A stretch of DNA of 64,000 nt from Terriglobia bacterium (GCA_020072565.1 JAIQGI010000007.1:124001-188000), one strand, 5' to 3'. Positions 16,041 to 36,056 are shown, numbered from the stretch's first letter. The notes: generated by a model from the letters alone, not told the origin. Numbers and translations: made by a program.

Positions 16041-18509
16041 TCACTTAACGTAACCTAAGGCCTTAAGACGTTCCTGGGTTTCAGGATTAAGCTTGTGAAT
16101 TGTATCTCGTTTTTCCTTAGTAAATTTCCTCCAAGCTTCTATGTCGTTTTTTTGCAAACCTGTCATAACCGTTGCATATTTATATTTGATATAGATGTCG
16201 GGGAGAAAGGACACCGCTGGGCTGCTCTCGTTATGATCATCCTTGAAGTTGAACAGCTCCAATCGAAATAAAGCAGGTAAACGCCAACTCCCTTTAAAAA
16301 GCGATGCGGAGCTGATCAAATGCCAGTTCCGGAAGAAAAGCGAGCCAGACAAGCGCGGTGTCCTTTGTGTCGATGACATTCCGTCCACTTCTTCCGAAAC
16401 TGCAATACGGTTATCCCAGTATGACAGCCTGCGACCCTCAATGAGGTCGAGTAAGGAATCACCTTGAAATACGAGGTTACTCGTATCGACCCGTGCCAAG
16501 TCGAGAATCGTAGGCATTATATCGATCAGCTGCACCGTCTGCGATATCCGTCTGCTCGCGTGAAAGCGAGCCGGATAAACAAAGTTCAATTGTGGATGGA
16601 TTGTCTCAATGTATCCAGGTTCTCCATGGCTCCACAAACCACGTTCACCGAGATGTTCTCCGTGATCTGCCATAAACACCAACAGTGTGTCCTGGTAAAT
16701 CCCTAAAGTTCGAAGGGTTTCAATTAACTTTGGCAAAAGAGCATCATTATGGCGAATGGCGCCGTCATACAGCAACCGCCGTCCTTCATCCGTCGGTTGT
16801 TTCACGTACTCCGGATCCAAGTATGTACGCTCGACCGGCTTCCCCTTTGATTGGGCATCCCTGTACCAGCTGTCAAAGGGTTTTGGCGGGTCATAAGGCC
16901 CTGCCGGATGATGGAGGTGGAGGTAAAGAAAAAAGTTCCGCTGCCTCTGCGATTCCAGCCAGCCTTTCAGGCGCTCTCCGAAAACTCCTTCCGTCTCCAG
17001 TCCCAGCGCCGCCTCGTCGAACAATTGGCTATATCCCTGATGCATGCCCGCCCACGCGCCAGCGTTTGGGTTTTGAATAAAAGCCCCGGTGACAAAGCCC
17101 TGGCTGCGCATAATCTCCGCAAGAGTTAGGAATTCGTCTCCCAGCATATCAGAAAAGTGCCAGACACCAGTCACGGTCGGCATAAGAGAGGTCATCAGCG
17201 ACGGAACAGACGGGCGCGTCCAACAACCCTGGGAAATCGCGTTTTCGAAGACAATCCCGCACTCTGCAAACAGTTTGTCCTTAACAGGAGTAGTAGGCAA
17301 TTTGTAGCCATTGCCTGAAAGGTGATCTGCCCGCAAAGCGTCCTCTAAAATTATAATGACATTGAAACGTCGCTCTGGCTCCGAATAAAGAATAGGGTTA
17401 CTCCATAAAGCAACATTTTTTTGCGAACCGCTTACTCGCAAGATGATCTTCACCTTCTTGCCTCTCCACACCTCTAAAGGCAGCCGGGCATCGTACCACA
17501 TGGAGGAATTGCTCACGGTCCTGGAATACACTATCGCTTCCCTTTGACCACTTTCGACAGAGATCTCAAAGTTAATCGGCTCATTGTTCACCAGAATCGC
17601 AGTGCCGAAATCGAGAAAAGGTGACCCTTCAGGGACCTCCAGAGAGTACTCCAAAGCTTGTGGCACAAGCATATACAAAATCTTTCGCATCTCATTCCCA
17701 ACAACCTCGTAGTCGGTGCCATTGATTTGTTTCAAATATCTGGCGTACGTCGAATAAAAACGAATGAAGTCAATCTCGACAACAACTCCATCACTCAGTG
17801 AGGGACGCAAAAGAATCCGTTTTATTTTTTGATCGCTCCTTAAATCGCGCTTGATCACATCCTTTAAGTTAACTTCGTATATGTGGAAGTCACCATCTGC
17901 AATCAGATCCAAATGGACTTGCTTCCTCCATATTTTCTCCTGCAAAGAGGGAGCCTGAAATTCACTATATTCAAGCCAGGCCACAATCATTCGTGCTGGC
18001 TTATTAGCCCGTGCACGAATAACGACCTCTCCGAGCTCATTTCTAGGAACTTCAAATGGCATTTCATTCGTAAAAAAGTCCTCATTTTTCTGCTCAATTG
18101 TAGCGATACCGTCCTTCACCTTAATTGTTGATTGGCCTAAAGCAGAAATAAGGTTTGGCCGGCTGGCGTCCCCAAACTCCAAGCCGTAAACTATTCCAGC
18201 TAAATCCTTCTGGAGAGGAAGAGAAGGTTTTTCACGCACCGCAGCGTTCCTTAACATCTCGTCGAGGCGAAGGAAAGAACCAATATTTGGATTTTTGGGC
18301 AGCTTTGCAAGCGCTTGATCTTGGTAGCCCGGCCGCGCGACATCACGAACACGACGCGACCGTTCGATCAGGTTCCGTGCACTGTTGTCAAAGACACCAG
18401 TGGCAAAACGAAGAGCATTCATCGTGTGCAAACAAAGCAGCGCAGCGACGAAAAGCAAACTGACGATTAAAACTCGTCTAGCAATCTTATGAAAAGGCCT
18501 GCCTTGCAT
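16041..18509 (-). CDS. Sulfatase-fold enzyme with N-terminal lectin-like domains and Thr nucleophile
   Basis: 822 residues. A signal-anchor (about 10-30) is followed by ~330 residues of beta-rich sequence (patterns like VEIDFIRFYS near 244-252 and ILVNNEPINFE near 305-315) resembling galactose-binding-like domains, then the catalytic domain. IILEDALRADHLS holds metal ligand Asp390; CWTRPSVPSLMTS puts Thr431 at the usual Cys/Ser nucleophile position; DHGEHLGERG is the second metal segment. It ends LKALGYVK, like the other sulfatase-fold protein here. Periplasmic phospho- or sulfo-group transfer or removal on a glycan is the likely role; family-level function certain, substrate not. Confidence 0.85.
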   Translation of the reverse strand: MQGRPFHKIARRVLIVSLLFVAALLCLHTMNALRFATGVFDNSARNLIERSRRVRDVARPGYQDQALAKLPKNPNIGSFLRLDEMLRNAAVREKPSLPLQKDLAGIVYGLEFGDASRPNLISALGQSTIKVKDGIATIEQKNEDFFTNEMPFEVPRNELGEVVIRARANKPARMIVAWLEYSEFQAPSLQEKIWRKQVHLDLIADGDFHIYEVNLKDVIKRDLRSDQKIKRILLRPSLSDGVVVEIDFIRFYSTYARYLKQINGTDYEVVGNEMRKILYMLVPQALEYSLEVPEGSPFLDFGTAILVNNEPINFEISVESGQREAIVYSRTVSNSSMWYDARLPLEVWRGKKVKIILRVSGSQKNVALWSNPILYSEPERRFNVIIILEDALRADHLSGNGYKLPTTPVKDKLFAECGIVFENAISQGCWTRPSVPSLMTSLMPTVTGVWHFSDMLGDEFLTLAEIMRSQGFVTGAFIQNPNAGAWAGMHQGYSQLFDEAALGLETEGVFGERLKGWLESQRQRNFFLYLHLHHPAGPYDPPKPFDSWYRDAQSKGKPVERTYLDPEYVKQPTDEGRRLLYDGAIRHNDALLPKLIETLRTLGIYQDTLLVFMADHGEHLGERGLWSHGEPGYIETIHPQLNFVYPARFHASRRISQTVQLIDIMPTILDLARVDTSNLVFQGDSLLDLIEGRRLSYWDNRIAVSEEVDGMSSTQRTPRLSGSLFFRNWHLISSASLFKGSWRLPALFRLELFNFKDDHNESSPAVSFLPDIYIKYKYATVMTGLQKNDIEAWRKFTKEKRDTIHKLNPETQERLKALGYVK

Positions 18510-20894: not shown

Positions 20895-21890
20895 TTACAA
20901 GTATTCCTTCTCCGTGTACCAACAAAGCGTCCTTTTCACACCTTCACGAAAGTCAACCGTTGGCACATAACCCAGCTCAATTTGGGCCTTGCGGTTGCTA
21001 AAAGCCCTATTTTCTGAGAAAAACTTCACCTGGGATCGCGTTAATAGAGGTTTTGATGCGCGGATGCTTCGGGCAAGCAATTCGAGCGCGCTCGCCCCAA
21101 GCCATGCAAAGCCGCGCGGGATGTTTATTCGGGACAAATGGACGTTCAATTCCTCAGCGATGATTTCTGCGATCTCCCTCACATGAAGCGGCGCTTTTCC
21201 AGTGATCATATAGGTCTTTCCGATGGCCCTATTGTTGTCCGCACACAGGAGAATCCCCTGGATTAAATCATCAATATAGGTTGGGTGAAGCACGCTGGCG
21301 CCATTCCCGATCAAGAAAAACCGTCGCTTGCGAATCGCGCTGAACAGAGGTAATACGTGCAGATCGCCAGGGCCGTAGACGAACTCAGGCCGGACGATCG
21401 TAAAAGGAAGATGACCCGACTTTCCGAACCTCAACACTTCCCTTTCCGCTTCACACTTCGACATTTCATAGATGTTCGAAGGATTGAACGGAAACGCTTC
21501 ATCAGCAATGACGCCGTCTGGAAGAGGGCCCAGCACACCGGCACTGCTCAGGTGAATGAACTGTCTGACGCTCGTGCCAGCAAGGCTATTTAAAACGTTA
21601 GTCACAGCACGTGTATTTACCTTCCAATATTCATCATGGGATATTCGCCACTGACCTAGCAGACCAAAAGAGCCGTATACTATTTCGATTCCATCCATAC
21701 ATGCGCGAAGAGAACCTTCATCCAGGACATCACCATAGCAATACTCGATATCGACCCCACCATCCCGGTTGCATCCCGCTACTTCACCCTTGTGCCGAAC
21801 AGGGATACGAACCCGAACACCCTTTCCCAAGAGTGCCTGAACAATATGGCTTCCAATAAATCCAGTGCCGCCAATAACCAGTGCCTTCAT
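20895..21890 (-). CDS. NAD-dependent epimerase/dehydratase, extended SDR (HpnA-like)
   Basis: 331 residues from the ATG at 21890 (GGGG 5 bases upstream; a TTG directly precedes it). GGTGFIG (7-13) is the NAD-binding glycine motif; HLSS and YEMSK (Tyr141, Lys145) form the catalytic triad region; RPEFVYGPGD is the substrate loop. The C-terminal pattern ELGYVP...FREGVKRTLCWY is shared with the two epimerases at 30.5-32.5 kb, so the three are paralogues. Family acts on nucleotide sugars or on 3-beta-hydroxy isoprenoids; the latter is possible here. Confidence 0.85.
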   Translation of the reverse strand: MKALVIGGTGFIGSHIVQALLGKGVRVRIPVRHKGEVAGCNRDGGVDIEYCYGDVLDEGSLRACMDGIEIVYGSFGLLGQWRISHDEYWKVNTRAVTNVLNSLAGTSVRQFIHLSSAGVLGPLPDGVIADEAFPFNPSNIYEMSKCEAEREVLRFGKSGHLPFTIVRPEFVYGPGDLHVLPLFSAIRKRRFFLIGNGASVLHPTYIDDLIQGILLCADNNRAIGKTYMITGKAPLHVREIAEIIAEELNVHLSRINIPRGFAWLGASALELLARSIRASKPLLTRSQVKFFSENRAFSNRKAQIELGYVPTVDFREGVKRTLCWYTEKEYL

Positions 21891-21916
21891 CAAAACCCCG
21901 CAATTGCAGCCAGTTA

Positions 21917-23506
21917 CTATACGATTCGGCTTCCCGCTTTTCCGCTCTTTCTTCGCTTCCCGATCGAACTTAGAACGGGCTTTCCTTCAAAGAGCCATTT
22001 TACGGCGATCGACCCAAGCTTTATGAAGTTGCATAGGATGGCGAAGCGCACCAACATAAACGGAGCCTTTGACAAATAATTCACTCCGCTAAGGAACCTG
22101 ATAAACCTCTTTGGCACAAAGTTTTTTGAGCACAGAGAATATAAGCTCAACCAATACCTGTCGGACAGAGGACGCGGATGATTTAAGGAAACATACCATT
22201 GGTCAAAACACGTAGTAGCTCTTCCTTCGACTTGATCTTCTGTAATCACTTTTGCTTCGAGGGCGTTTCGAGTCAGAATGGTATTAGGAAAATATATCAG
22301 TGAGAACATGTGCATATGGAAAGGGCGCGACATACTGAGTAACAGTTTAAGACCGCTCCTCTTATCCTCAGTCGTCTCGAAAGGATTATCAACAATAACA
22401 TCATAGAATGGCACTATCCTCAATTCTCGCATTATCCGGGAAGTGTTAATCAGTTTCTCATCGGAAACCGGACGATTAAAGACCTCCTTGCGAACGCGTG
22501 CGGAACCAGACTGTATCCCGATCTCAACACGTTCCAGGCCTGCGTCCCGTAGCATGCATAAGATTTCCCTGTCAACAGTTTCGGGGTGCTGCATGCAATG
22601 AAAAGGCAAGCCGATGTCTCTTTTGTATTGTTCCACAAATTCCTCAGCCCAGTCCCTATCCCAGGTAAATACCTCATCGATGAAATCGATTCGTTTCAGG
22701 TCAGCAAAATTATCCCTTTGCGATCTCAACTCATCCAACACGTTCTTGACGCTTCTTCGCCTTATTGCCCGTCCCTTCCCTGCACACAAGTCGCTAAGGA
22801 TACTGTTGGAACAATAGCTGCACCGATATGGACAGCCCCTGGAAGTTATGACATCCAGATTGAAAGATCGTCTTCCCGGATCCTCGCAAGCGATCTCGTT
22901 GTGGTGGACAAAATACTTGCTTTCATCAATATAATCTGGAAACGGCAGGGCATCTAAATTCTGCCACAGCCCGCGGATTGGGTTTCTGACAATTGACCCG
23001 TCTCTCCGGGTCCAGATGCTTTCGACATTCGGATTAACATTTCTTAAAGCAAGCTCTTGCGCAAGCTCCAAAATTGCCTGCTCCCCTTCACCCAGACAAA
23101 TCATGTCTGCAATCTGTATGCTTTCATCAGGCGCCACAGTAGCATGCGTGCCGCCCCAGATAACTGGTTTGTTCAATCTCGTCTGTATTTGTCTCGTAAT
23201 CTCACGTGCAATAGAGAGAAAAGAAGATCGCACTCCAAGTCCTACCAGATGAGGATCAAGCCGGCCTATGAGCTGCAACAAAAGCTCGTATTCCCTCTGG
23301 CTTGGACGTTCCATCAGGTCCAGAGCGATATCTTTGTCCTTGAAAAAGATAAGATGGACGTCAATCCCATTCTCGCGCAAGACAGAGGCTAGGTAACGCA
23401 GTCCGATCGCACTGCAGGAGTAAAGCGAGATAAGACAAACTCGGATTCTTGCGCGGCCGCCATCTCCTGCGCCCATAGCCTGGGAGCTGCCTGTCATTTT
23501 CGCCAT
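21917..23506 (-). CDS. B12-binding radical SAM protein
   Basis: 529 residues. B12-type domain at 20-175 (GLRYLASVLRENG, WGGTHATVAPDES, LGEGEQAILEL), then cluster motif Cys225, Cys229, Cys232 in SRGCPYRCSYCSN. After the cluster there is a GKGRAIRRRSVKNVLDEL segment also seen, in altered form, in the radical SAM protein at 59.7-61.1 kb (GLGKIVRKRGIDSLIKEI), suggesting the two form one subfamily. Lies directly downstream of gmd/fcl and upstream of an epimerase. The first 20 residues may be non-native; an ATG at 23497 is an alternative start. Confidence 0.9.
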   Translation of the reverse strand: MAKMTGSSQAMGAGDGGRARIRVCLISLYSCSAIGLRYLASVLRENGIDVHLIFFKDKDIALDLMERPSQREYELLLQLIGRLDPHLVGLGVRSSFLSIAREITRQIQTRLNKPVIWGGTHATVAPDESIQIADMICLGEGEQAILELAQELALRNVNPNVESIWTRRDGSIVRNPIRGLWQNLDALPFPDYIDESKYFVHHNEIACEDPGRRSFNLDVITSRGCPYRCSYCSNSILSDLCAGKGRAIRRRSVKNVLDELRSQRDNFADLKRIDFIDEVFTWDRDWAEEFVEQYKRDIGLPFHCMQHPETVDREILCMLRDAGLERVEIGIQSGSARVRKEVFNRPVSDEKLINTSRIMRELRIVPFYDVIVDNPFETTEDKRSGLKLLLSMSRPFHMHMFSLIYFPNTILTRNALEAKVITEDQVEGRATTCFDQWYVSLNHPRPLSDRYWLSLYSLCSKNFVPKRFIRFLSGVNYLSKAPFMLVRFAILCNFIKLGSIAVKWLFEGKPVLSSIGKRRKSGKAGSRIV

Positions 23507-23573: not shown

Positions 23574-24521
23574 TCATGGTAGGTTCGCCTGATACCAGCT
23601 GTACAGGTCTGCCAGGCCCGCATCAAGCGACCTGTGTGCGGTCCAACCGAGGGAGGTCAGGCGGTGGACATCCAGCAGCTTCCTGGGGGTGCCATCGGGT
23701 TTTGAGGGGTCGAACACTATTGGGCCCCGATAGCCGACAATATCACGAATCAAGAGCGCCAACTCGCGAATCGTCACATCCTCCCCCGTGCCGACGTTGA
23801 TGATTTCCGGGTCGTCGTAGTGCAACATCAGGAACAGCACTGCATCGGCCAGGTCGTCCACATGGAGAAATTCGCGGCGCGGCGTCCCGGTGCCCCAGAC
23901 GACGACTTCGGGAGCGTCGGTCAGTTTCGCCTCGTGGAATTTGCGGATGAGCGCAGGCAAGACATGGGCCTTTTTAAGGTCGAAGTTGTCGCCAGGACCA
24001 TAGAGGTTGGTCGGCATCGGGCAGATCACGTTGAAGCCGTACTGACGGCGGTAAGCTTGCGCCATGCTGATGCCGGCAATCTTGGCGACGGCGTAGGGTT
24101 CGTTGGTGCGTTCAAGGGGACCCGCAAGTAGATATTCTTCCCTGATGGGCTGAGGAGCTTCACGCGGGTAAATGCAGGAAGAACCGAGCACAAGCATCTT
24201 CTCCACACCATGCTGCCAGGCGGCGTGGATCACATTGCATTCAATCATCAGATTTTCATAAATGAACTCGGCGGGATAGCTGCTGTTGGCGTGGATCCCA
24301 CCGACCCGGGCGGCAGCGAGGAAAACTAATTCAGGCTTTTCCTTCGAGAAGAAATCCTGGACCGCATCCTGCTTCGTGAGATCGAGCTCGCGCAGTGTCC
24401 GCAATAACAGCCTGTTGCATCCCGCTTTCATAAGACGGCGGCAGATGGCGGAACCGACCAGACCCGTGTGGCCGGCTACGAAGATTTTGCTCTCGGGATG
24501 TAATACTGGTTTCGCCTTCAA
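23574..24521 (-). CDS. fcl: GDP-L-fucose synthase
   Basis: 315 residues, the usual length. GHTGLVGS (18-24) binds [12 protein letters not shown] (113-120) holds the catalytic Ser and Cys; YAVAK gives Tyr143 and Lys147; [11 protein letters not shown] and [13 protein letters not shown] are diagnostic of the 3,5-epimerase/4-reductase. It converts GDP-4-keto-6-deoxymannose to GDP-L-fucose in the cytoplasm. The start is a TTG at 24521, 25 bases after the gmd stop; no ATG fits. Together with gmd it supplies L-fucose to the glycan. A colitose-type variant is unlikely because no partner genes are seen. Confidence 0.93.
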
Positions 24522-24546: not shown

Positions 24547-25587
24547 TCAAATGTAAGTCCGCAAGGAGGAGGAGTGACCCGCGTTCAGCAAAGTCTTTTC
24601 CTTTTGCGCCATCTCTAAGTCATGATCGACCATCATGCGCACCAGCTCTTTGAAACCCACCTTGGGCTCCCACTGGAGTCTCGCCTTTGCTTTGGAACGA
24701 TCTCCCATGAGTTGATCTACTTCCGTAGGGCGCAGATACCTTGAGTCCAGTTCCACATAGCTCGGCCAGTCCAATCCCACAAGGGAGAAGGTCTCGTCCA
24801 GAAACTCCTTTACTGAGTGTGATTCCCCAGTCGCGATGACATAATCGTCCGGCTCGGCCTGCTGCAGCATCGCCCACATCGCTTTCACATAGTCTCCCGC
24901 ATAACCCCAATCGCGTTTCGCTTCAAGATTGCCCAGGTAGAGCTTCGTCTGCAATCCGTGGCGGATACGGCCCGCGGCGCGCGTTATCTTGCGGGTTACG
25001 AACGTCTCGCCTCGCTGCGGAGACTCATGGTTGAAGAGGATTCCATTGCAGATGAATAGGCCATAGGCCTCTCGGTAATTGACGGCGTACCAGTGAGCGG
25101 CAACCTTGCTCGCAGCATAAGGACTGCGAGGGTAGAAGGGCGTCTTCTCGTTCTGCGGCGGGGGCGCCGCGCCGTACATTTCCGAGGATCCTGCCTGATA
25201 AAACCGGACTTGACCGGGATTGTTGCCGCAATAGTCGCGCACCGCCTCCAGCAGGCGCAATGTGCCGGTCGCCACCGTATCCGCCGTGTATTCGGGTTGA
25301 TCAAAAGAAACACGAACGTGCGACTGAGATCCCAGGTTGTAAACCTCATCCGGTTCCGTCTTCTCCAGGATCCGGCGCAGGCTGGTGCCGTCGGTGAGAT
25401 CCCCGTAGTAAAGAAACATCCGTGCACCACGGTCATGAGGATCCCGGTAGATGTCTTCGATGCGGTCCGTATTGAAGGTGCTCGTCCGCCTGATGATGCC
25501 ATGAACTGCGTAGTTTTTTTCGAGCAGCAACCGAGCCAGGTACGATCCGTCCTGGCCTGTGATACCAGTGATCAGCGCTTTCTTCAT
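24547..25587 (-). CDS. gmd: GDP-mannose 4,6-dehydratase
   Basis: 346 residues from the ATG at 25587, where the family normally begins; the frame is open 34 codons upstream without homology. [11 protein letters not shown] (7-17) is the NADP motif, GSSEMYG (133-139) the catalytic loop, and YAASK gives Tyr157 and Lys161; [16 protein letters not shown] is strongly conserved in the family. It dehydrates GDP-mannose to GDP-4-keto-6-deoxymannose, the substrate of Fcl next door. Preceded by ~170 bp without a gene, so a promoter could lie there. Confidence 0.95.
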
Positions 25588-25756
25588 GGGTGGTGAGTCT
25601 AACACACAAGTCGAATCATTTCGAACTAAACCCGTTGCCGTCGTCAACCCCGGGGCAATCGGAAATTGCTTCAGATCCCTGTCCAGCACTTATGCATCCA
25701 GGCTGTTTCCTGTCGCCAGGACTGCAAAGTAGGAATCCACAAGCAGAACACGGGTG

Positions 25757-27271
25757 TTAGTTCTTTAACTCGACCCTGCCACAGGTTCGGCGAAGATTCT
25801 TGAGAAGGAAATTGACAACGATTCGTCGGTCCTTTTTGAAATACGACAAGTACTTCTTCGTTAAACGGAAGGGGTGTCGCGCCAGCGCCATGATTCTGCT
25901 GATCAGTTCTTCATGAGCTACTAATCGTTCCAGCTCTGCTGCCGGCAATTCCGGAGTATTGATATTTGCCCGCTCAACCCGAATGTTGTCAAGACTGAAA
26001 TCCGGGACAAAATAGCCGCCCCGCTCACAAAGATCCCACAATCTTGTGCCAGGCATCGGATTGGCGAAAAAGAAATGCGTGGTATCGGTATCCAATTCGC
26101 GGGCAAACCGGAAGCTACGCTTTAACGTGTCTCTGCTTTCGCCGGGCATTCCCACGACAAAGAACGATTCAACCTCGATTCCGTATTTCTGCATTGATCT
26201 CACCAGCGGTTTGACTTTTCTCAAGTCAAGAGGCTTCTTGATAACATCATGCAGCATGTGCTCATCGCCTGACTCTACGGCCACGAACAGCTTGTAACAC
26301 CCGCTGGCCCGCATCAGTCCGAGCAGATTCTCGTCGACTGCCCAGAGCGCCAAACCCGTGGGAACGGTCCAGACAATGTCCAACTTCCTGTCTATGATTC
26401 CCTGAAAAAGCTTCTCGGCACGTTTTCTGTTCAATACCAGGTTATCGTCGTCGAAATGAACCTCTCTGATGCCGTAGGTCTTCACAAGATGTTCGATCTC
26501 ATCCAGAACGTTTTCAGCGGATCGGGCGCGCCATTTCCCGCCCCAGGTGGCATGAACCGGACAAAATGTGCACTGGGCGACGCACCCGCGCGAGGTATTC
26601 AGCGGGGTGAAGGGTTTACGCCGCGTCAGAAGAAATGCTTCCCCGATTTCAAAATATCTCTCCATCGGGAGGAGGTGCCGCGCCGGCCAGGGCAATTCAT
26701 CCAAATTCTCGATGAAGCGGGTCTTGGGAAGCACCCGCACAATCCCATTCTGTCTGGAAGCCAGGCCGTCGAGCCCGGAGTAGTCCCCAATCTCGATGCT
26801 TCTTAAGAGATCCCGAAAGCTGTGCTCGCCCTCCCCGAGCACCACGAAATCAATTTCTCTATGTTGAATTACATTTTCCGGCACAGCCGACGGATGCGGG
26901 CCGCCGATGACGGTAACAATCTCCGGGCTGACTTTTCTGACAAGTTCACAGACCTGAAGCGCCTCCCGGAACCCCGAGGAAAAGGAGTTCGAGACGCCGA
27001 TTACGTCCGGGGCGAATGCCTCGATCCTTTCGCGAAGTCTTTCAAAGCTAAGGCCGTAGCGGATCAGGTTTCTCCCAAGTTCGATTTCGGTCTCATACCC
27101 CTCCACGACGCTGTCCACGATCTGAACCTGGTAGTCCTTTTCTATCATTGCTGCCAGGTAGCCGAGTCCGATGGGAGGATGCACACCTTTGGGTTCGGAA
27201 CTCAGGTCCGTATGCACGGTCAAAGGGGGTTGAATGAGAAGTATTTTCTCGATTTTCTTTCTTTCGCTCAT
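25757..27271 (-). CDS. B12-binding radical SAM protein (module copy 1)
   Basis: 504 residues. B12-type domain with HPPIGLGYLAAMIE, IGGPHPSAVPE and LGEGEHSFRDLL; radical SAM motif Cys230, Cys234, Cys237 in SRGCVAQCTFC, then GGKWRARSAENVLDEI. A GT2 gene ends 32 bases upstream, and the same gene pair follows again at 28.2-30.4 kb. The C-terminal ~100 residues are basic and helical. Methylation or C-C bond chemistry on a lipid-linked substrate is a reasonable guess; product unknown. Confidence 0.9.
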   Translation of the reverse strand: MSERKKIEKILLIQPPLTVHTDLSSEPKGVHPPIGLGYLAAMIEKDYQVQIVDSVVEGYETEIELGRNLIRYGLSFERLRERIEAFAPDVIGVSNSFSSGFREALQVCELVRKVSPEIVTVIGGPHPSAVPENVIQHREIDFVVLGEGEHSFRDLLRSIEIGDYSGLDGLASRQNGIVRVLPKTRFIENLDELPWPARHLLPMERYFEIGEAFLLTRRKPFTPLNTSRGCVAQCTFCPVHATWGGKWRARSAENVLDEIEHLVKTYGIREVHFDDDNLVLNRKRAEKLFQGIIDRKLDIVWTVPTGLALWAVDENLLGLMRASGCYKLFVAVESGDEHMLHDVIKKPLDLRKVKPLVRSMQKYGIEVESFFVVGMPGESRDTLKRSFRFARELDTDTTHFFFANPMPGTRLWDLCERGGYFVPDFSLDNIRVERANINTPELPAAELERLVAHEELISRIMALARHPFRLTKKYLSYFKKDRRIVVNFLLKNLRRTCGRVELKN

Positions 27272-27303
27272 GAACTAAGGCTTCCCTTCCCAACCATTCT
27301 CAG

Positions 27304-28122
27304 CTATTGGCGCGGCGCATTGGATATACGCTCCGCAGGCGGACGTTCGTGCGCCTTCCCGGGCTTCAATGTCCCAACTCTTGCCAACTTCTCCTTGACG
27401 AACAGCCATCTGAGCCGGAAGACCCCCTTCATGTCTTCCCAGGCGGTGGGAACAATCCTGACGCGGCTGTCGTCGTCCTCAATCCAGGTTACTGGGATTT
27501 CTTTGATCCGGTACCCTCGCCTCTCGGCCAGCACAAGAAGTTCGGTATCAAAGAACCAGGATTGATCCTTAACCTGAGGCACGAGGTCTTCCACAATTCG
27601 TCTGGTCACCGCCTTGAAGCCGCACTGGGCGTCTTTGAACTTGACAAACAAGAGACACTTCAGGATGACATTGTAGGCTCTTGAGGTGATCTCTCTTTTC
27701 AGGCATCGTTTCGTATTTGCACCCTTGGCAAGGCGCGAGCCAATCGCGATGTCATAGCCTTCCCGCCCAAGCGCGTAAACAAGCTTCGGCAAAGCCGCCA
27801 GTTCAGTGGAGAGATCCACATCCGTATACAGAACGATGTCAGCAGTACTCACCCGCCATGATTCCCGCAGGGCGCGGCCTCGACCACGTTCCTTCAGATG
27901 CACACATGCCACATCATCAAACGTTTCTGCCAGATTCTCTGCAACCTTTAAAGTGCCGTCCGTCGAGCCGTTGTCGACAACGACAATGCGCCATTTAAAT
28001 CCAACCTGTTTCTGCAAAAATTCACGAACCGTCGCCACGCTCGCTTCCAAAACGTGCGCCTCGTTCAGGACAGGGATGACGACGTCAACACGGATGTCAG
28101 ATATGGTCTTTTCTCGCAACAA
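27304..28122 (-). CDS. GT2, ALG5/DPM1-like polyprenyl-phosphate glycosyltransferase (module copy 1)
   Basis: 272 residues. VVIPVLNEA (14-22), VVDNGSTDGT (48-57), DVD (101-103) as DxD, and the pattern GSRLAKGANTKR, DAQCGFKA, WFFDTELL that marks ALG5-type dolichyl- or polyprenyl-phosphate glucosyltransferases. No C-terminal membrane domain. The start appears to be one of two adjacent TTG codons (28122), with GAGG upstream. It probably makes a polyprenyl-phosphate hexose used by the membrane glycosyltransferases of the locus. Confidence 0.85.
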   Translation of the reverse strand: MLREKTISDIRVDVVIPVLNEAHVLEASVATVREFLQKQVGFKWRIVVVDNGSTDGTLKVAENLAETFDDVACVHLKERGRGRALRESWRVSTADIVLYTDVDLSTELAALPKLVYALGREGYDIAIGSRLAKGANTKRCLKREITSRAYNVILKCLLFVKFKDAQCGFKAVTRRIVEDLVPQVKDQSWFFDTELLVLAERRGYRIKEIPVTWIEDDDSRVRIVPTAWEDMKGVFRLRWLFVKEKLARVGTLKPGKAHERPPAERISNAPRQ

Positions 28123-28203
28123 ATAAAGTTTCCTCAGTCAAAGGTTTGGTTTCCGCCCAGTTTTGACATGCCTCCTGACAGGAGCACAATTCGACTTGAA
28201 GAC

Positions 28204-29604
28204 TCATTTCGGTACCAGAGCCCTTAAAAACCTCAAACCATTGCTAATTGAACTTCGATTCGCGAAGAGACTGATGTGGTTCACCAAATACTGCGGCCTG
28301 ATCAGAAACCTTCGATATGCTCTCGTCTGGACTTCCAAAAGGTCCTTTTCCTCCATTCCGGACGGAACGAAGGGCAATGTGCCCGGGTGGCCGGAGTAGT
28401 TTCTCCAATCGTCGCTGACCCGTCCGTGTTTTTTGGCAAGTTCTCTCAGCGGTGTGCCGGGATAGGGAGTAAACATAAAAAAAGAAACCCCATCCAAAGG
28501 AAGAGACAAAGCCAGCCTGATCGTCTTCTCCATCTCCGCTCTTGTCTCTGTCGGTATCCCCAGGATGAAGGAACCCATCACGTTTATGCCGTGCTGCTTG
28601 ATGAGTCGAATGCCCTTCTCCGTCTCCTCCATTTTGAGTTTTTTGTTAATCAATTCCAGGATTCGGGTGCTCCCGCTCTCGATGCCGACATAAACGACAC
28701 TGCACCCTGCCATTTTCATGAGCGGGAGAACCTCTTCGTCAACCTCATTCGCACGACCAAGACACGACCAACCTATATCCAGACGCCGTCCGAGCATCTC
28801 CCGGCAAATGTCAATCGTTCTATTCTTTGAAAGCAAAAAGTTGTCATCTTCAAATGAGATGAACTCAACGCCATACCTCTCCTTTAAGGAGGCGATCTCT
28901 TTGACAACATATTCAGCGCTGTGTGCCCGCCACTTCCTGCCGAATATCGACTGGTCACAGTACCCGCATTGAAAGGGACATCCCCGGCTGGTGATCATAG
29001 TCGTGGTGAAGCGCGCACCGCGGAATGGGGTGTGGGAATAACGCCGCAAATCCTTGAGCAAATGACGTGCCGGGACCGGCGTAGCATCGAGGTCTGAAAC
29101 CGGCTTTCTCACAGGGTTCTGTATGATCGCACCCTGATATCGGATCAGCGTACCCGGAACTCCATTCAGGGGCTGGCTGCTTTCCAGGCGCTCCACCACC
29201 TCTGCCAGGGTTTGCTCCCCCTCGCCCACGACTCCAATGTCCAAGGTCTCGCAGTCCTTCATGGTCTCGAGTGGGATAGCACTCAAATGGGCTCCGCCCA
29301 AAACGGTCGTAATTTCGGGATAAGACTCCTTTAACACCTGGAGCACTTGCCTGGCTGCATGGTAGGAGACCGTGGTAGAGGTAACGCCCACGACTCGGGG
29401 CATAAAGGCATCGATTTGCTGTCTCAATTGGGAGATTCCGATATTCTCGGCGGCACAGTCCACAATTCTCACTTCGTGTTTTTTTTCAAGCAAGACCGCT
29501 CCGAGATAACACAATCCCAGGGGAGGCAGACAGGGTGCGCCGGCAGAGTATTTGGAATATATGTCAGCATTGGTGATGTGAGGATTGATCAAAAGGATTT
29601 TCAT
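28204..29604 (-). CDS. B12-binding radical SAM protein (module copy 2)
   Basis: 466 residues. LPPLGLCYLGAVL, LGGAHLSAIP and VGEGEQTLAEV mark the B12-type domain; Cys209, Cys213, Cys216 in SRGCPFQCGYC are the cluster ligands; KWRAHSAEYVVKEI follows, close to the KWRARSAENVLDEI of the radical SAM protein at 25.8 kb. The ATG lies 19 bases after the stop of the GT2 upstream. The conserved order radical SAM/GT2/radical SAM/GT2 suggests duplication of a two-gene unit or acquisition of related units. Confidence 0.9.
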   Translation of the reverse strand: MKILLINPHITNADIYSKYSAGAPCLPPLGLCYLGAVLLEKKHEVRIVDCAAENIGISQLRQQIDAFMPRVVGVTSTTVSYHAARQVLQVLKESYPEITTVLGGAHLSAIPLETMKDCETLDIGVVGEGEQTLAEVVERLESSQPLNGVPGTLIRYQGAIIQNPVRKPVSDLDATPVPARHLLKDLRRYSHTPFRGARFTTTMITSRGCPFQCGYCDQSIFGRKWRAHSAEYVVKEIASLKERYGVEFISFEDDNFLLSKNRTIDICREMLGRRLDIGWSCLGRANEVDEEVLPLMKMAGCSVVYVGIESGSTRILELINKKLKMEETEKGIRLIKQHGINVMGSFILGIPTETRAEMEKTIRLALSLPLDGVSFFMFTPYPGTPLRELAKKHGRVSDDWRNYSGHPGTLPFVPSGMEEKDLLEVQTRAYRRFLIRPQYLVNHISLFANRSSISNGLRFLRALVPK

Positions 29605-29623
29605 GATGGTTCCGATGCTTTAT

Positions 29624-30376
29624 TTAACTTTCTCGAACTTGTTTCCACAGAGCCAGGATCTCATGCAAGGTAATATAGATGTGTTTCATCTTGACTTTGG
29701 AGACGCCGGACGTCCTCGGCAGGTGACGGACACTGATCTCCTTAATTCTCAAACCCCGCTTTTTCAGCTTCACCATGATTTCGGTGTCAATGAAATAGCC
29801 GCCCGATTCTATGGAAATCTCCTTAAGGGCCGACCGCTTGAACAATTTGAACGAGCAATCGACATCCTTCAGCTTCAGTCCGAACAAGATGCGCACGAGT
29901 AAGTTGTAGCCTCTTGAGAGCAGCAGACGGTGACGCGGATCTTGTCGGTTCTTTCTGTAGCCTACGACGATGTCATATTCAGCGATCAAAGGAAATGCCC
30001 TGTGAAGGTCGTTCATGTCAAATTGATAATCGCCGTCGGTAAAAAACACCAGGTCATACCGCGCCGCGTCGAAACCAGCTTTCAGGGCATTTCCATATCC
30101 TCGGCTCTCCTTGTGGTGTATGACCTTTACGAAGCCGTCATTCTCCTTAGCCAAACAATCCGCGATCTCCCGAGTCCTGTCAGTACTCCCGTCGTCGATG
30201 ATAATTACCTCGCCCTGCACGAAAGTTGATTTGATCAGGCCGAGAAGGTCTTGAGTTAATCTCGCAACCGTGGCTTCTTCGTTCAATGCGGGGAAAAATG
30301 CTGAGATGGACTTATTTGCATCGATCCTGTCTTTGGCTGTCGCGGCGCCGCTGTGATTATCCGTGAGGCTTTTCAT
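29624..30376 (-). CDS. GT2, DPM1-like polyprenyl-phosphate glycosyltransferase (module copy 2)
   Basis: 250 residues. FFPALNEEA (28-36), IIDDGSTDRT (59-68), DGD (114-116), GYRKNRQDP and DVDCSFKLF, then RHLPRTSG. These are the motifs of soluble polyprenyl-phosphate hexose synthases. A GGAGG lies 13 bases before the ATG at 30376. It resembles the GT2 at the left end (1318-2079) more than its neighbour at 27.3 kb, for example in the RHLPRT loop, so the two module copies are not simple recent duplicates. Confidence 0.85.
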   Translation of the reverse strand: MKSLTDNHSGAATAKDRIDANKSISAFFPALNEEATVARLTQDLLGLIKSTFVQGEVIIIDDGSTDRTREIADCLAKENDGFVKVIHHKESRGYGNALKAGFDAARYDLVFFTDGDYQFDMNDLHRAFPLIAEYDIVVGYRKNRQDPRHRLLLSRGYNLLVRILFGLKLKDVDCSFKLFKRSALKEISIESGGYFIDTEIMVKLKKRGLRIKEISVRHLPRTSGVSKVKMKHIYITLHEILALWKQVRES

Positions 30377-30517: not shown

Positions 30518-31537
30518 TCAGGCGACTGCCGCGCTGGCAACTTGGGATCCATTGCGGTGTTGGAGATACCATCTTGCGGTTATGTGCACGCCCTCCCGGA
30601 GGCTGATCCTGGGTGCGTAGCCAAGTTCACGGCGCGCCTTGTCGATTTCGTGACGGTTATCGCTGCCGAACAATTTGACGCCCAGCCGCGTCACCAGTGG
30701 CTGGCGTTGGGGATGGACCTGCTTGACAGCCCGCTCGGCGGCGAATGCGAGCGCATACAGAGCAAAGTAGGGTATGTGGAGGCGCGGCGGCTTGGCACCA
30801 ATTTCCAGTGCTATTGCGTGCCAGAGTTGCGCCTGAGTCAGCGGTTGGTCGTTGGTGAGGTTGAACACCCGGCCAACGGCCTGCTCCCGGCTGGCCGCCA
30901 GGAGCAGGCCATCCACGATGTCGCTGACATAGACGAAGGGAACGGCATTGCGCCCCGACCCAATGATAATGGCTCTCCCGGCACGCAGGCGGTCCGCCAT
31001 GCGCCCAAAGTTGATCCAATCCCCTGGCCCAAAGACAGTACCGGGACGGATAATTACGCCGGGCAGATAGTCCCGGGTGATATAACTCTGCACGAGCTTG
31101 TCGGCGTCAGCCTTGGTTGCTGCATAGAGATCAGACCCGGGTCTCAACGGAAAATCTTCGCGCACCGGCTGACCCAGTCCCATGCCGTAGACAGCCCAGG
31201 AACTCACATGGATCAGGCGTTTCACGCCGGCTGCCAGCGCAGCCCGGCAAACATTTTCGACACCTGTCACGTTGACGGAATAGTAGTCCTGTCTGGGGCG
31301 CCAAAGGCCGTGTATCGCCGCAAGGTGGAAGACCGTATCCACGCCCTGCATCGGCTCGATCAGCTCTTCCCGCTGGCACACGTCGCCACGGTAGACAGTG
31401 ACGTGGTGCTGCTCGAGCCAGGCCGTATCCTCGGTGGGAAGGACGAGCGCCCGGACGGTATCGCCGCGTGCACACAACGCCCCAACCAAGTGATGGCCTA
31501 TAAAGCCAGTCGCCCCGGTGACCAGAGTCTCCCTCAC
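30518..31537 (-). CDS. NAD-dependent epimerase/dehydratase (tandem copy B)
   Basis: 339 residues from a GTG at 31537, chosen because GGGAGGAG stands just upstream and the GTGA overlaps the stop of the preceding gene. VTGATGFIG (6-14) is the NAD motif; HVSSWAVYG and Tyr138/Lys142 (LYAATK) are catalytic; RPGTVFGPGD follows. The C-terminus KARRELGYAP...LREGVHITARWY closely matches copy A upstream, so this is a tandem duplicate. GC-richer by eye than most of the window. Likely acts on a nucleotide sugar or isoprenoid alcohol. Confidence 0.87.
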   Translation of the reverse strand: MRETLVTGATGFIGHHLVGALCARGDTVRALVLPTEDTAWLEQHHVTVYRGDVCQREELIEPMQGVDTVFHLAAIHGLWRPRQDYYSVNVTGVENVCRAALAAGVKRLIHVSSWAVYGMGLGQPVREDFPLRPGSDLYAATKADADKLVQSYITRDYLPGVIIRPGTVFGPGDWINFGRMADRLRAGRAIIIGSGRNAVPFVYVSDIVDGLLLAASREQAVGRVFNLTNDQPLTQAQLWHAIALEIGAKPPRLHIPYFALYALAFAAERAVKQVHPQRQPLVTRLGVKLFGSDNRHEIDKARRELGYAPRISLREGVHITARWYLQHRNGSQVASAAVA

Positions 31538-32544
31538 TTCTCCTCCCGCGCGCTGTTTACGCTGTGCCTCGACCGATACCAGGCGACGCTCCATTGCACT
31601 CCCTGGGCCAGGTTGACCTCGGGTGAAAACCCGAGCTCGCGCCGGGCCCTCTGGATGACAAAGCGATTCTCGCCACCCAACAGTTGCACGCCATAGCGGG
31701 TGAGCGGCGGCGGCTGTCCCCGCCGTGAAATGTGACCCACGCCTTCTGCAACAGCTCCCAAAATCAGCGCGAGACGGCGGGGAAAATGACGGTTGGGCGC
31801 CGGCACTCCCAGCTCGGTGGCAATAGCGCCTACGTATTGAAGCTGGGTTACCGGCTCGTCGTTGACCAGAACGTAGGTCCTTCCGACGGCTTCAGCCGCT
31901 TCACCCGCCAGCAGAATACCCCGGGCCACGTCCGTCACATATATCAGCGGCAGGTGGTTGTTTCCGGAACCGATCAGAACCATCCTGCCGCGCTCAATCA
32001 GCGAGGCGAAGCGGGCAAAGCTCGCGACGTCCCGGGGGCCGTAGATCCAGCCGGAACGGACGATCGTCACGGGAGTCTCATGCTCCCGGAGCATTCTCTC
32101 CAGCAGCCGTTCGCCCATGACCTTGGACCAGCTATACGGATTCGGATCGATGTGCACCGGTGACGTCTCGTCGGCAACGCCGCGTACATCGGCGCCAAGA
32201 ACGGCGATCGAGCTGACGTGCACAAAGCGGCGAACTCCGGCGGCTAACGCGACCTTGAGGAGAGACTCCAACCCTTGAATGTTGGTGATCTCGTACTCGC
32301 GCCGCGGTCCCCAGACACCCGTACGCGCAGCACAATGAAGCACCCGATCCACTCCGTGAACTGCGGCTTCCAGCGACGCGCGATCCGACAGGTCACCCCG
32401 GCAGATATCCACGCCCGCGCGCGCCCAGCAATCCGTGCCCTCGCCCGGACGCACGAGGGCACGCACGGATTCGCCCCGTTCTATCAGCAAGTCAACCAGA
32501 TGGCTACCAAGCAGTCCGGTTGCTCCGGTTACCAGTACCGGCAT
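31534..32544 (-). CDS. NAD-dependent epimerase/dehydratase (tandem copy A)
   Basis: 336 residues from the ATG at 32544 (a GTG two codons upstream is possible). VTGATGLLGSH (5-15) binds NAD; HVSSIAVLG and Tyr137/Lys141 (YSWSK) form the active site; RSGWIYGPRD is the substrate loop. The tail RARRELGFSPEVNLAQGV is shared with the adjacent copy B and, more weakly, with the epimerase at 20.9 kb. Stop overlaps the GTG of copy B. Confidence 0.87.
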   Translation of the reverse strand: MPVLVTGATGLLGSHLVDLLIERGESVRALVRPGEGTDCWARAGVDICRGDLSDRASLEAAVHGVDRVLHCAARTGVWGPRREYEITNIQGLESLLKVALAAGVRRFVHVSSIAVLGADVRGVADETSPVHIDPNPYSWSKVMGERLLERMLREHETPVTIVRSGWIYGPRDVASFARFASLIERGRMVLIGSGNNHLPLIYVTDVARGILLAGEAAEAVGRTYVLVNDEPVTQLQYVGAIATELGVPAPNRHFPRRLALILGAVAEGVGHISRRGQPPPLTRYGVQLLGGENRFVIQRARRELGFSPEVNLAQGVQWSVAWYRSRHSVNSAREEK

Positions 32545-32621
32545 TTCCACACCCCACTTGTCATTGCCAATTCCTTTAAGTTATCGGCACCCGGATGTTT
32601 CCACTTTCGTCCGGATTGGGC

Positions 32622-34028
32622 TCATTGAAAAGCACGAGCCTCTTTATCTGCTCGTGGCCTCCGAGGCTGGAAACCGAAGACGGTCACTTCCGCCGGGCAC
32701 AGAACTCGAACCGGCAGAATGCTGTACCCGACCCCGCGCGAAACATAGAGCAAGGATTTCTTTAAGCGATAGAGCCCACCGGAATATCTCTTGCCAATCG
32801 AAGTCATAGTCTCAATGGGGCCATAGAATGGGATCCTGATCTGGCCTCCGTGGGTGTGGCCTGTCAAGATCACATCAACATCGTTCAACCGCGCTTTTGT
32901 GTGCGCGGCCATGCCGATCCGATATCGGACATTCCCGCCCCCGTCGACAGCATCGCTAAACTGCACGTATACAGAGTCGGACAGCGGGCTTCCGTTGAAG
33001 GCTTTCAGCCGCATCCACAGATGGTAGCGCACGCCGCTTCTGGCGCTGAAATCGGCCTCGAAATAGTCCGCCGGGTCGACCAAGGGCTGATATCGCCATC
33101 CCCGCCGGGCTGGCAGGTCATCCAGGCGAATGCCAGACAGCGCGCCCGAATCACCTGCCTTCTTCCACTTGCCATGCATCCGCTCTTCCTGAACAGCGCC
33201 TGCGGGAATCGCGATTAGATCGCCGTATCGTTCCGGGATGCTTCCTGCACGCAGAAACTCATCAATTCTCCCGAATCGCCGGAAATTCAGTGCGTCATCC
33301 AATTCAGGATACGGATTCAGAATAATCGTATCCACGAAAACGCCGTCCTGGCGGCTCTGAATGCGCACCGTCTGCGTACCATCCCGTTCGAAATAGACAT
33401 CGCCTCTCTCAGGGCCAAAATAGGTACTTTCAGCCCAGCTCCAGGTCTTAAAAAAATCCTCCTTTTTGTCTGAATCAATGAGATTTACCGCCAAGGCATC
33501 TCCGCGCGGTAACAGGATATCAGGCGAATGTGCCAACAGGATCGTGGGATGATTGAAGCATACGCCCTTCACAGCTTCATCAAAGTTATCATAATGGTAA
33601 AAGGGGTCATCCACGCCGATCAGATAGAAGTTTCTCTCCCCATAAGACAACCTGACATTTCTATTACTCAAAACCGTGACTCGAATATCTTCCAGAGCCT
33701 TAAGAAAATCATCTTGAAACCGTCTCGGCTTGAACGTGTGATCGGCATTGCCGAGCACGGCGAATACGCCGCGTCTGGCTCTCATCTCGCCCAAGGTCCG
33801 GACGCAAGCAGAATATTGATTTGAGAAGCCAACTATAAGATCTCCGGTGATGAAAATGAAGTCGGGGGCCTCGCGGTTGACCAAGCGAACAATTTTCCTT
33901 TCGCGCGCCCCAAATCTGCGAATATGCAAATCAGAAAGCTGCACGATTTTCAGACCCTCGAGGCCGCAGTTGCATGGCTCAATATCCAGAGTTATCCTTT
34001 CGACCTCGATTCCCGGCGTGACCAGCAT
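32622..34028 (-). CDS. Metallophosphoesterase interrupted by a lectin-like domain
   Basis: 468 residues from the ATG at 34028; earlier in-frame starts would overlap the upstream gene. Calcineurin-like motifs in order: SDLHIRRFG (32-40), TGDL (61-64), LGNADH (92-97), LLAHSPDI (164-171), then a ~200-residue interruption, and TGHTHGGQI (389-397). In YkuE/YaeI-type enzymes the last two motifs are only a few dozen residues apart. The insert ends in a beta-rich stretch (FEADFSARSGVRYHLWMR, DSVYVQFSDAV) of carbohydrate-binding type. No signal peptide is evident from this start. Relatives cleave UDP-diacylglucosamine or phospholipids, so a lipid-linked sugar phosphate is a fitting substrate here (inference). 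Confidence 0.8.
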   Translation of the reverse strand: MLVTPGIEVERITLDIEPCNCGLEGLKIVQLSDLHIRRFGARERKIVRLVNREAPDFIFITGDLIVGFSNQYSACVRTLGEMRARRGVFAVLGNADHTFKPRRFQDDFLKALEDIRVTVLSNRNVRLSYGERNFYLIGVDDPFYHYDNFDEAVKGVCFNHPTILLAHSPDILLPRGDALAVNLIDSDKKEDFFKTWSWAESTYFGPERGDVYFERDGTQTVRIQSRQDGVFVDTIILNPYPELDDALNFRRFGRIDEFLRAGSIPERYGDLIAIPAGAVQEERMHGKWKKAGDSGALSGIRLDDLPARRGWRYQPLVDPADYFEADFSARSGVRYHLWMRLKAFNGSPLSDSVYVQFSDAVDGGGNVRYRIGMAAHTKARLNDVDVILTGHTHGGQIRIPFYGPIETMTSIGKRYSGGLYRLKKSLLYVSRGVGYSILPVRVLCPAEVTVFGFQPRRPRADKEARAFQ

Positions 34029-34075
34029 TTCACGAACCGCTTTCAGAGAAGTGCCACTCCATGCCCGGCGTCCTT

Positions 34076-35167
34076 TCAAAAATACTTTCTCATCTTCGAT
34101 GCCAGTAGAGTTTTGAGAACCCGTAGTAAAGCAGGATACGAAACCAGCATGTTCGTGTAACTCGCATTGGCAAGCGGGCAATAGCACAACTCTTCACGAA
34201 TAGGTTTCCGTACTTCCTGAGCTCTTTTTGAAAACCATACCTTGCCGAAGTCGTACAGCTCATCCCTCAGATTACCCATGCTCTCCGCCTTGGTACAGCA
34301 AGCCCATACGTTGCCGTCAGGAGCTATGTGGGCAGACATGAATCCGGCATAACACGGAACGATTTGCTTCTTTTCTCGGATGATCCTCTTAACCATTCGA
34401 TAATATTCCGACCGGAATGCCTGCGTGACTCCATGGATGCCCCGATGCCGTTGGCCACGAATTCCGGCACAAAGATAATCGATCGCCCTGCAATAGGCGT
34501 CCTCCGCAGGTACAATATCCTCCCCAACCGTGCCCAATTCAACCCGCTGCTCGGCGATTTCGGTAATGTATGCGTCAGGACCCAACTTCAAAACCTCTTG
34601 ATAAATCTGCGCGAATCTGTCGACGTTAAAGCGCGATATGACCGTATGAATGCCGACACTCAGGTTCGAACATTTTACCCTCTTCAGGTTTTCAATGGTT
34701 CTGATGGCCTTCGCATAATTCCCGTCCACGTTGCGGATCCTATCGTGGCGCTCTTCGATTTCGTCTAGAGAGACATTGACGATTACCCGTGTTTCTGGGG
34801 CATTTTTAGCGATCTGCTCGACCTTTTCGCCCACCACATCCGACAGAATCCCATTGGTAGGAATGTTCAGAATTCTTGGTTTGCAGTGCACATAGGCAAG
34901 CGCGCAGATCTCAGCGAAATCCCTTCGTAAAAAAGGTTCACCACCACTCATCGTAATCCAGAAGACTCTGGGTCCGATGGAAGCAAAAGTCTTATCATAT
35001 TCCTCAACGCTGAACTCCAGCGCCCGCTTATCATATATCCTGCAGGTCCTGCACCTGGAGTTGCACCTGTACGTCACGCTGACCGTCAAATTTGCCGGGT
35101 ACAAACGCGGCGTTCCAAAACGGCGATACAACTGATATCCGGGAATACTAACTGTCAGAGGAATCAT
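34076..35167 (-). CDS. Radical SAM protein with SPASM-like C-terminus
   Basis: 363 residues from the ATG at 35167, which overlaps the upstream GT2 by 20 bases; the upstream extension of this frame is antisense-like and without homology. VTYRCNSRCRTCRIY supplies Cys35, Cys39 and Cys42. MSGGEPFLRRDF is the GGEP motif that binds SAM. C-terminal cysteines (PCYAGF, ACC, CYC) could bind an auxiliary cluster as in SPASM proteins. No B12 domain. Possible work on a sugar, lipid head group or small peptide; not determinable. Confidence 0.85.
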   Translation of the reverse strand: MIPLTVSIPGYQLYRRFGTPRLYPANLTVSVTYRCNSRCRTCRIYDKRALEFSVEEYDKTFASIGPRVFWITMSGGEPFLRRDFAEICALAYVHCKPRILNIPTNGILSDVVGEKVEQIAKNAPETRVIVNVSLDEIEERHDRIRNVDGNYAKAIRTIENLKRVKCSNLSVGIHTVISRFNVDRFAQIYQEVLKLGPDAYITEIAEQRVELGTVGEDIVPAEDAYCRAIDYLCAGIRGQRHRGIHGVTQAFRSEYYRMVKRIIREKKQIVPCYAGFMSAHIAPDGNVWACCTKAESMGNLRDELYDFGKVWFSKRAQEVRKPIREELCYCPLANASYTNMLVSYPALLRVLKTLLASKMRKYF

Positions 35168-36056
35168 TGCGCAGATTCTTTGTTGATTTTGCAATATCCC
35201 ACACGAAGGGATTCTTTTTCTTGACGTAATAGTCGTAATCGCCCAACAGCTTGCCATACAACTCCAGCGCCATCGCGCCTGCGGTCCAAGACAGGAACCT
35301 GCCACTCCAGCCCGCGTCGCGGAGAACCCGTCCCACAAGCCGAACCAGATTATGAACCTTGATGGTGGATACCGTATAGCCGCATGTCGCCTGGAGATGC
35401 TTGTGGCCGGCCGTTACCCGGCGTCTCTGCTTGATGTAATCACGAATTGTTTCCGCGCCTTTGTTATGAACAACCGCATTGCCGGCGTAATGAATCCGAA
35501 GCCCGGCTTTGTTGATCAACGCTTCGATGCTAGCCTCGTCCACAGCAGTGTCAGCCGAAATCCCGTGGATAATGTTGCGGAAAGCGACCATTTCCCCTAA
35601 CTTTGGTTCGGAAAGAGCAATCTGATGATGCAACCGCCAATATAAGCCGACCGTAAAGCCAATGAAGGTATTTGTCGCATTCATCGGCACCGGCCGGCCC
35701 CCGGTCATTCCAACCATTGGATCTTGGAATGGCTGGACAAGGTTCTCGACGGTGTCAGGCTCAGGTAGGGTATCGCCGCTTTCTAAAATGACGATGTCCC
35801 CCTCGGCATGTCTGAGAAACAGGTTGATCGCTGAGGCCTTGCCTTCTCTCTTTTCCTGAACCAGCAGTCTTACTTGTGGGTTCCGCCGGGCGCAGGATCT
35901 GACGATCTCCTCTGTCCTGTCCGTACAACCACTAGCCACCACACAAATATCCTTGATTTCACAACTGACCAGTCGCTGAGCATACAGGCATTCGAGCAAA
36001 TACCCGATGTTCGCTTCCTCGTTGTATGCCATGACACCAATGCTGCAGGTCAGCAT
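35148..36056 (-). CDS. GT2 glycosyltransferase with C-terminal hydrophobic segment
   Basis: 302 residues. IGVMAYNEEANI (6-17) and ASGCTDRTEE (41-50) are the N-terminal GT2 motifs; ESGDTLPEP (92-100) replaces the usual DxD, as in some bacterial GT2s that make longer polymers. The end has a hydrophobic helix (FLSWTAGAMALELYG). Overlaps the downstream radical SAM gene by 20 bases, indicating one transcript. Confidence 0.8.
   Translation of the reverse strand: MLTCSIGVMAYNEEANIGYLLECLYAQRLVSCEIKDICVVASGCTDRTEEIVRSCARRNPQVRLLVQEKREGKASAINLFLRHAEGDIVILESGDTLPEPDTVENLVQPFQDPMVGMTGGRPVPMNATNTFIGFTVGLYWRLHHQIALSEPKLGEMVAFRNIIHGISADTAVDEASIEALINKAGLRIHYAGNAVVHNKGAETIRDYIKQRRRVTAGHKHLQATCGYTVSTIKVHNLVRLVGRVLRDAGWSGRFLSWTAGAMALELYGKLLGDYDYYVKKKNPFVWDIAKSTKNLRNDSSDS

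Follow-up and report, generated by a model that had tools for sequence, protein, structure and literature searches.

The stretch analysed here (the window) comprised 64,000 nt, positions 124001-188000 of contig 7 of a Terriglobia bacterium genome of 7.46 Mb (GCA_020072565.1, JAIQGI010000007.1), with 64 radical S-adenosylmethionine (SAM) matches genome-wide. It contains a tandem of radical SAM (rSAM) and family 2 glycosyltransferase (GT2) genes at 25.8-30.4 kb, for which a first-pass annotation had suggested that each rSAM enzyme acts on the product or carrier of its GT2 neighbour. Genes were called as open frames. The tandem was read as GT2b, rSAM2, GT2a and rSAM1 in transcription order, with gaps of 19, 81 and 32 nt, exactly as annotated. 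The further pair proposed at 52.9-55.1 kb was confirmed as GT2c and rSAM3, separated by 90 nt. All three pairs were transcribed with the GT2 first and the rSAM second. A glycosyltransferase gene of the GT-C type was located 71 nt past rSAM3, resulting in the order GT2c, rSAM3, GT-C, as in cassettes of Patescibacteria. The genes of these pairs were:

25757-27271, minus strand: rSAM1, 504 aa; B12-binding 81 bits and Radical_SAM 66 bits (Pfam); CVAQCTFC
27304-28122, minus strand: GT2a, 272 aa; DPM1/ALG5-like GT2; Glycos_transf_2 93 bits (Pfam); DVDL, GSRLA
28204-29604, minus strand: rSAM2, 466 aa; B12-binding 78.5 bits and Radical_SAM 99 bits (Pfam); CPFQCGYC
29624-30376, minus strand: GT2b, 250 aa; DPM1/ArnC-like GT2; Glycos_transf_2 103 bits; DGD (DGDY), GYR (GYRKN)
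51189-52802, minus strand: GT-C (PMT_2), 71 nt from rSAM3
52874-54229, minus strand: rSAM3, radical SAM protein, B12 domain weak
54320-55096, minus strand: GT2c, DPM1-like GT2; DADL/GSRYK

The GT2s had been assigned to the class that loads one sugar on polyprenyl phosphate, and this assignment held. The solved structures nearest to GT2a, GT2b and GT2c were dolichol-phosphate mannose synthase (DPMS) and ArnC, and rankings in PDB and NCBIfam placed their domains nearest to DPMS, ArnC and AglJ, not to processive or polymer GT2s. GT2c was the closest of the four DPM1-like GT2s to solved dolichol-P-mannose synthase, with 114 bits. A DXD-type metal site and a GSR/GYR acceptor-loop motif were present in all three and were not found in GT2d (1318-2091). 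Membrane segments were not detected in GT2a, GT2b or GT2c. A DPM profile built here, which includes those sequences themselves, gave 225-332 bits for DPM1-like GT2s versus 47-58 for other GT2s; the GT2 and rSAM classes rest on such profiles, with the window's own proteins included. GT2b is likely a polyprenyl-phosphate monosaccharide synthase, judging from these similarities. In the rSAM proteins, the CX3CX2C motif and an N-terminal B12-binding domain were both present in rSAM1 and rSAM2. The motif was also present in rSAM3, with a B12 domain at 27.9 bits, below the cut-off of 32.1. The cut-offs of three named models were missed. Scores for rSAM1, rSAM2 and rSAM3 were 205, 212 and 170 bits with HpnJ (TIGR03471, cut-off 577.6) and 98, 133 and 91 bits with rSAM_AprD4 (NF033070, cut-off 500), and rSAM1 and rSAM2 reached 295 and 150 bits with the Sden_1168 P-methyltransferase (NF038361, cut-off 575). 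The nearest models of rSAM2 were BchE (223 bits) and HpnJ, both below cut-off, and HpnJ was the best model for rSAM3. The solved structure nearest to rSAM2 and rSAM3 was AprD4 (6fd2).

Loci of related genes were gathered by scans with two rSAM1 peptide motifs and by single-query searches in one phylum. Conserved pairing of the genes at 25.8-30.4 kb was not found, as the nearest relatives of rSAM1, rSAM2 and GT2b were unpaired. Relatives of rSAM1 at 70% (L114), 51% (L094) and 46% identity (L115-117, Omnitrophota and Woesearchaeota) had no adjacent DPM1-like GT2, which suggests that the GT2 neighbours of rSAM1 in the window are recent. The best named relative, from Aminicenantes (L114), was flanked by two rSAM0 homologues and not by GT2s. 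For rSAM2-type relatives, an adjacent DPM1-like GT2 was present in only one of 20 extended loci of the phylum (L038). Relatives of GT2b were present in 78 of 396 genomes, with a B12 rSAM within 1.5 kb in none of the 29 loci read. Several phylum genomes held GT2c-like and GT2b-like DPM1-family genes side by side (L086-L088, L091, L076, L082), a conserved GT2-GT2 pair. Further genes that bear on the conserved neighbourhoods were:

21917-23506, minus strand: rSAM0, B12 radical SAM; 53-54% homologues flank the 70% rSAM1 homologue of Aminicenantes L114
30518-31594, minus strand: second HpnA-like short-chain dehydrogenase/reductase (SDR)
31534-32550, minus strand: HpnA-like SDR (sugar epimerase/reductase type)
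32622-34187, minus strand: metallophosphoesterase, 34% to its equally placed counterpart in G103
34076-35167, minus strand: SPASM radical SAM34 (rSAM34), start probably 35167, 20-nt overlap with GT2_35
35148-36056, minus strand: GT2_35, a GT2 outside the DPM1 type that opens the conserved rSAM-GT2 pair

Within the window, the radical SAM/GT2 pair that is conserved is GT2_35 with SPASM rSAM34 at 34.1-36.1 kb, which was absent from the first-pass list. This block (34076-36056) was kept at about 40-50% identity, mostly in the company of an HpnA-like SDR and a DPM1-like GT2. SPASM rSAM34 homologues of at least 45% came from four phylum genomes and from Woesearchaeota (L124), accompanied by a GT2_35 homologue and an SDR in 5/5 cases each and by a GT2c-family GT2 in 4/5. 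The GT2c family recurred with GT2_35, SPASM rSAM34 and SDR in genomes G013, G169 and G088 and in one Woesearchaeota archaeon. Genome G103 held the best rSAM1 relative in the phylum sample (51%), on a contig with a guanine-plus-cytosine (GC) content of 70%. It kept the window order of GT2_35 (49%), SPASM rSAM34 (46%), phosphoesterase (34%), SDR and rSAM1; GT2a, rSAM2 and GT2b were missing from this block. The metallophosphoesterase of the window had its conserved halves at residues ~60-150 and ~435-504 (YaeI/LpxG-type models), leaving an apparent insert of ~280 residues.

The trees, some of which came from quick searches and had long branches, separated the partners as well. The three window rSAMs fell into three clades of a 165-row rSAM tree, and GT2a, GT2b and GT2c into three separate clades of 58- and 76-row GT2 trees. 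An approximately unbiased (AU) test rejected a clade of rSAM1 and rSAM2 (p 7e-44), and a clade of all three rSAMs was likewise rejected. Matching trees had been proposed as support for functional pairing. The partners lay in unrelated clades, and distances did not agree among nine sporadic pairs, the window's included (r 0.05, p = 0.35). The first-pass annotation had regarded a lack of pairing elsewhere or incongruent trees as signs of chance adjacency, and by this reasoning the pairing at 25.8-30.4 kb is to be read from sequence comparison as chance adjacency. Obligate pairing of rSAM1 with GT2a and of rSAM2 with GT2b was ruled out by neighbourhoods and trees. Adjacency is partly expected, because 64 kb packs 11 radical SAM genes and four DPM1-like GT2s. 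Genome-wide, 4 of 14 DPM1-like GT2s adjoined one of the 64 rSAMs; three of the four belong to this cluster. Another adjacency in the same genome (L053:9299-11685, G000 contig 32) was that of a DPM1-like GT2 and a B12 rSAM with a 4-nt overlap in reverse order, rSAM first.

The proposed functional module of GT2 and B12 rSAM was not borne out by the neighbourhoods and trees of the window's own pairs, but a real co-inherited pair was found in Elusimicrobiota, Patescibacteria and archaea. The rSAM1 query yielded 80 loci, which comprised 14 adjacencies of a DPM1-like GT2 and a B12 rSAM versus 8.8 expected (p 0.04), and in ten of these loci the GT2 was directly upstream, in the same direction and often overlapping. 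Nine GT2s of Elusimicrobiota, Patescibacteria and two archaea formed one clade (100/100). All nine adjoined a B12 rSAM, and eight lay immediately before it on the same strand. The bacterial partner rSAMs formed a matching clade (99*) with 7/8 members paired. GT2 and rSAM distances of the nine pairs agreed (r 0.91, p 0.0004; shared ancestry uncorrected, close relatives within each phylum). The co-inherited rSAMs scored best to HpnJ, with 279-282 bits over almost the full length (cut-off 577.6), and their GT2 partners to AglJ. The next gene was a PMT_2 GT-C in four Patescibacteria, and a polytopic membrane protein often followed the pair. Such a protein was encoded after 6/12 GT2-paired rSAMs versus 10/112 unpaired ones (p 0.001, uncorrected for relatedness). 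GT2a, GT2b and GT2c were outside the nine-row GT2 clade, and rSAM1 and rSAM2 were outside the matching rSAM clade, to which rSAM3 was nearest, weakly (81/80, 30-row tree). The order GT2, rSAM, polytopic membrane protein was present in the window as GT2c, rSAM3, GT-C and absent from the tandem at 25.8-30.4 kb. We tentatively consider a widespread, undescribed cassette of polyprenyl-phosphate sugar synthase, HpnJ-like B12 rSAM and GT-C, a suggestion that is possible but rather doubtful. The rSAM would rearrange or deoxygenate the carrier-bound sugar and the GT-C would move the remodelled sugar to the envelope; the co-inherited pair would be its core and GT2c-rSAM3-GT-C (51.2-55.1 kb) an independent assembly. 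A literature search, incomplete in coverage, revealed no paper describing a radical SAM enzyme that acts on polyprenyl-phosphate sugars.

The 64-kb stretch is most likely an envelope-glycan biosynthesis cluster. It was almost one-directional and comprised, besides the 11 radical SAM genes and four DPM1-like GT2s, further glycosyltransferases, about eight GT-C-like membrane proteins, a Wzx-type flippase, gmd/fcl, three HpnA-like SDRs and sulfatase-superfamily proteins. Its GC content was 50.5%, whereas nine stretches elsewhere in the genome had 54-60%. At the thresholds used, rSAM1 and rSAM2 were absent from the single genome of the same genus, and from nearly all genomes of the same family, that were searched. 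Because of the low GC content and these absences, the cluster looks acquired. Other sugar-related genes near the tandem were:

20895-21893, minus strand: third HpnA-like SDR
23574-24521, minus strand: GDP-fucose synthase-like epimerase (fcl)
24547-25689, minus strand: GDP-mannose 4,6-dehydratase (gmd)

Four known systems were compared. In the hopanoid system HpnI-HpnK-HpnJ, a glycosyltransferase links a sugar to a lipid and the radical SAM enzyme HpnJ then rearranges the lipid-bound sugar; the genes are closely associated (PMC12583986). HpnJ or BchE was among the best models for rSAM1-3 of the window and for the co-inherited rSAMs. However, scores of 170-282 bits were far below the HpnJ cut-off, the GT2s were DPM1/ArnC/AglJ-like, and beside them no counterpart of hpnI or hpnK was seen. 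Three-component systems of the GtrB/ArnC-ArnT type, which join a polyprenyl-P-sugar and a GT-C, provide a precedent for sugar modification on the carrier before transfer (PMC11127046). The window cluster resembles them in joining DPM1-like GT2s, many GT-C enzymes and a flippase. It differs in that the described systems are without a radical SAM enzyme, the window GT2s have no C-terminal transmembrane segments and no dedicated small flippase lies beside them. AprD4/AprD3 is a radical SAM dehydratase with a reductase that deoxygenates a free pseudodisaccharide (PMC5461906). Reductase-like SDRs lie near the window rSAMs and AprD4 is the nearest structure to rSAM2 and rSAM3, which together suggest deoxygenation, although rSAM1-3 reached only 91-133 bits with the AprD4 model. 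The B12 radical SAM P-methyltransferase Sden_1168 was the best named model for rSAM1 and gave 308 bits with its G103 orthologue; rSAM1 was below the cut-off and no phosphinate pathway genes were seen.

The locus is probably best explained as a mosaic, low-GC envelope-glycan cluster in which rSAMs tailor sugars or lipids and the radical SAM/GT2 neighbours at 25.8-30.4 kb were reshuffled and are not cognate pairs. We infer the enzyme activities, substrates and final product of the cluster as follows. GT2a, GT2b and GT2c would each charge polyprenyl phosphate with a single sugar taken from a nucleotide sugar, and the many GT-C enzymes would use these lipid-linked donors once flipped. The B12 and SPASM radical SAMs, with the HpnA-like SDRs, may tailor sugars or sugar-lipids by deoxygenation, C-methylation or ring rearrangement. 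Reshuffling would have brought the tandem neighbours together. The conserved partners of rSAM1 were rSAM0 and the block of GT2_35, SPASM rSAM34, phosphoesterase and SDR, those of GT2c were GT2_35, SPASM rSAM34 and an SDR, and the recurrent GT2 of rSAM3 came from the GT2a clade. Several observations weigh against reshuffling. The eight B12-rSAMs and four GT2s called in the window showed four adjacencies versus 1.3 expected from within-window shuffles, a slight excess (p = 0.027). All three window pairs have the GT2 ahead of the rSAM and a short gap, a layout shared with the co-inherited pairs of other genomes. Glycan clusters are rearranged quickly, so functional partners need no conserved adjacency. 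Moreover, rSAM3 orthologues (39-48%) adjoined a DPM1-like GT2 in 3/5 other genomes. The GT2 precedes the orthologue in G096, follows and overlaps it in G019 and is convergent with it in G101; GT-C-like or PTPS_related membrane proteins are encoded close by. These GT2s belonged to the clade of GT2a, not of GT2c, and hint at a recurrent link of rSAM3 to the GT2a clade. An early tree had grouped the GT2s next to three rSAM3 orthologues with GT2a, which would make GT2a the cognate of rSAM3; this exchange of partners was rejected when closer GT2a relatives were added and most of the clade was not beside an rSAM3.

The first-pass reading, in which every rSAM is dedicated to the GT2 next to it and modifies that enzyme's polyprenyl-phosphate sugar before GT-C transfer, can draw on the threefold order with short gaps, the abundance of GT-C genes and the likeness of GT2c-rSAM3-GT-C to the GT2, HpnJ-like rSAM and PMT_2 cassettes of Patescibacteria. 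The more frequent polytopic membrane protein after GT2-paired rSAMs points the same way, and DprE1/E2 homologues are a precedent for modification of a carrier-bound sugar before GT-C transfer (PMC11127046). It is nevertheless rather improbable, given the unpaired relatives of rSAM1, rSAM2 and GT2b, the incongruent trees and the recurrence of GT2c and rSAM3 with other partners. The pairs at 25.8-30.4 kb gave no evidence for rSAM action at the polyprenyl-phosphate stage, and GT2c-rSAM3-GT-C offers a faint indication of it. Action of the rSAMs on a lipid (polyprenol, hopanoid or fatty acid) or other acceptor unrelated to the GT2 products is also unlikely. It would fit the HpnA-like SDRs and the very different substrates of the nearest named models (HpnJ, BchE, ladderane-type and P-methyltransferase families), but glycan genes (glycosyltransferases, gmd/fcl, Wzx, GT-C) dominate the cluster and the nearest solved structure, AprD4, is an aminosugar dehydratase. 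A duplicated GT2-rSAM unit, with copies diverged toward two related sugars, is hardly credible. The order is the same and identities are 32-38% between rSAM1 and rSAM2 and 26-37% between GT2a and GT2b, but the AU test, with the model applied here, rejected the rSAM1 and rSAM2 clade and each GT2 was closer to relatives in other genomes (GT2b 47%, GT2a 55%) than to its tandem mate.

If true, a radical reaction acting on a polyprenyl-phosphate sugar would add a new route to diverse cell-surface glycans to the deformylation and epimerisation steps already known. With its neighbours being reshuffled, the window is the wrong place to test this idea. A better place is provided by the short, overlapping, co-inherited operons of GT2 and B12-rSAM, in part with GT-C, whose trees agree and thereby already pass the test failed by the window.

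Elsewhere in the cluster, two large sulfatase-superfamily proteins were encoded at 10500-12671 and 16041-18509; homologues are neighbours of rSAM1 in G103 and also lie close to other rSAM loci. The upstream cluster end (59697-63971) held three further radical SAM genes in a row. The protein rSAM_59 was 42% identical to a Woesearchaeota homologue that adjoins an rSAM1 homologue.

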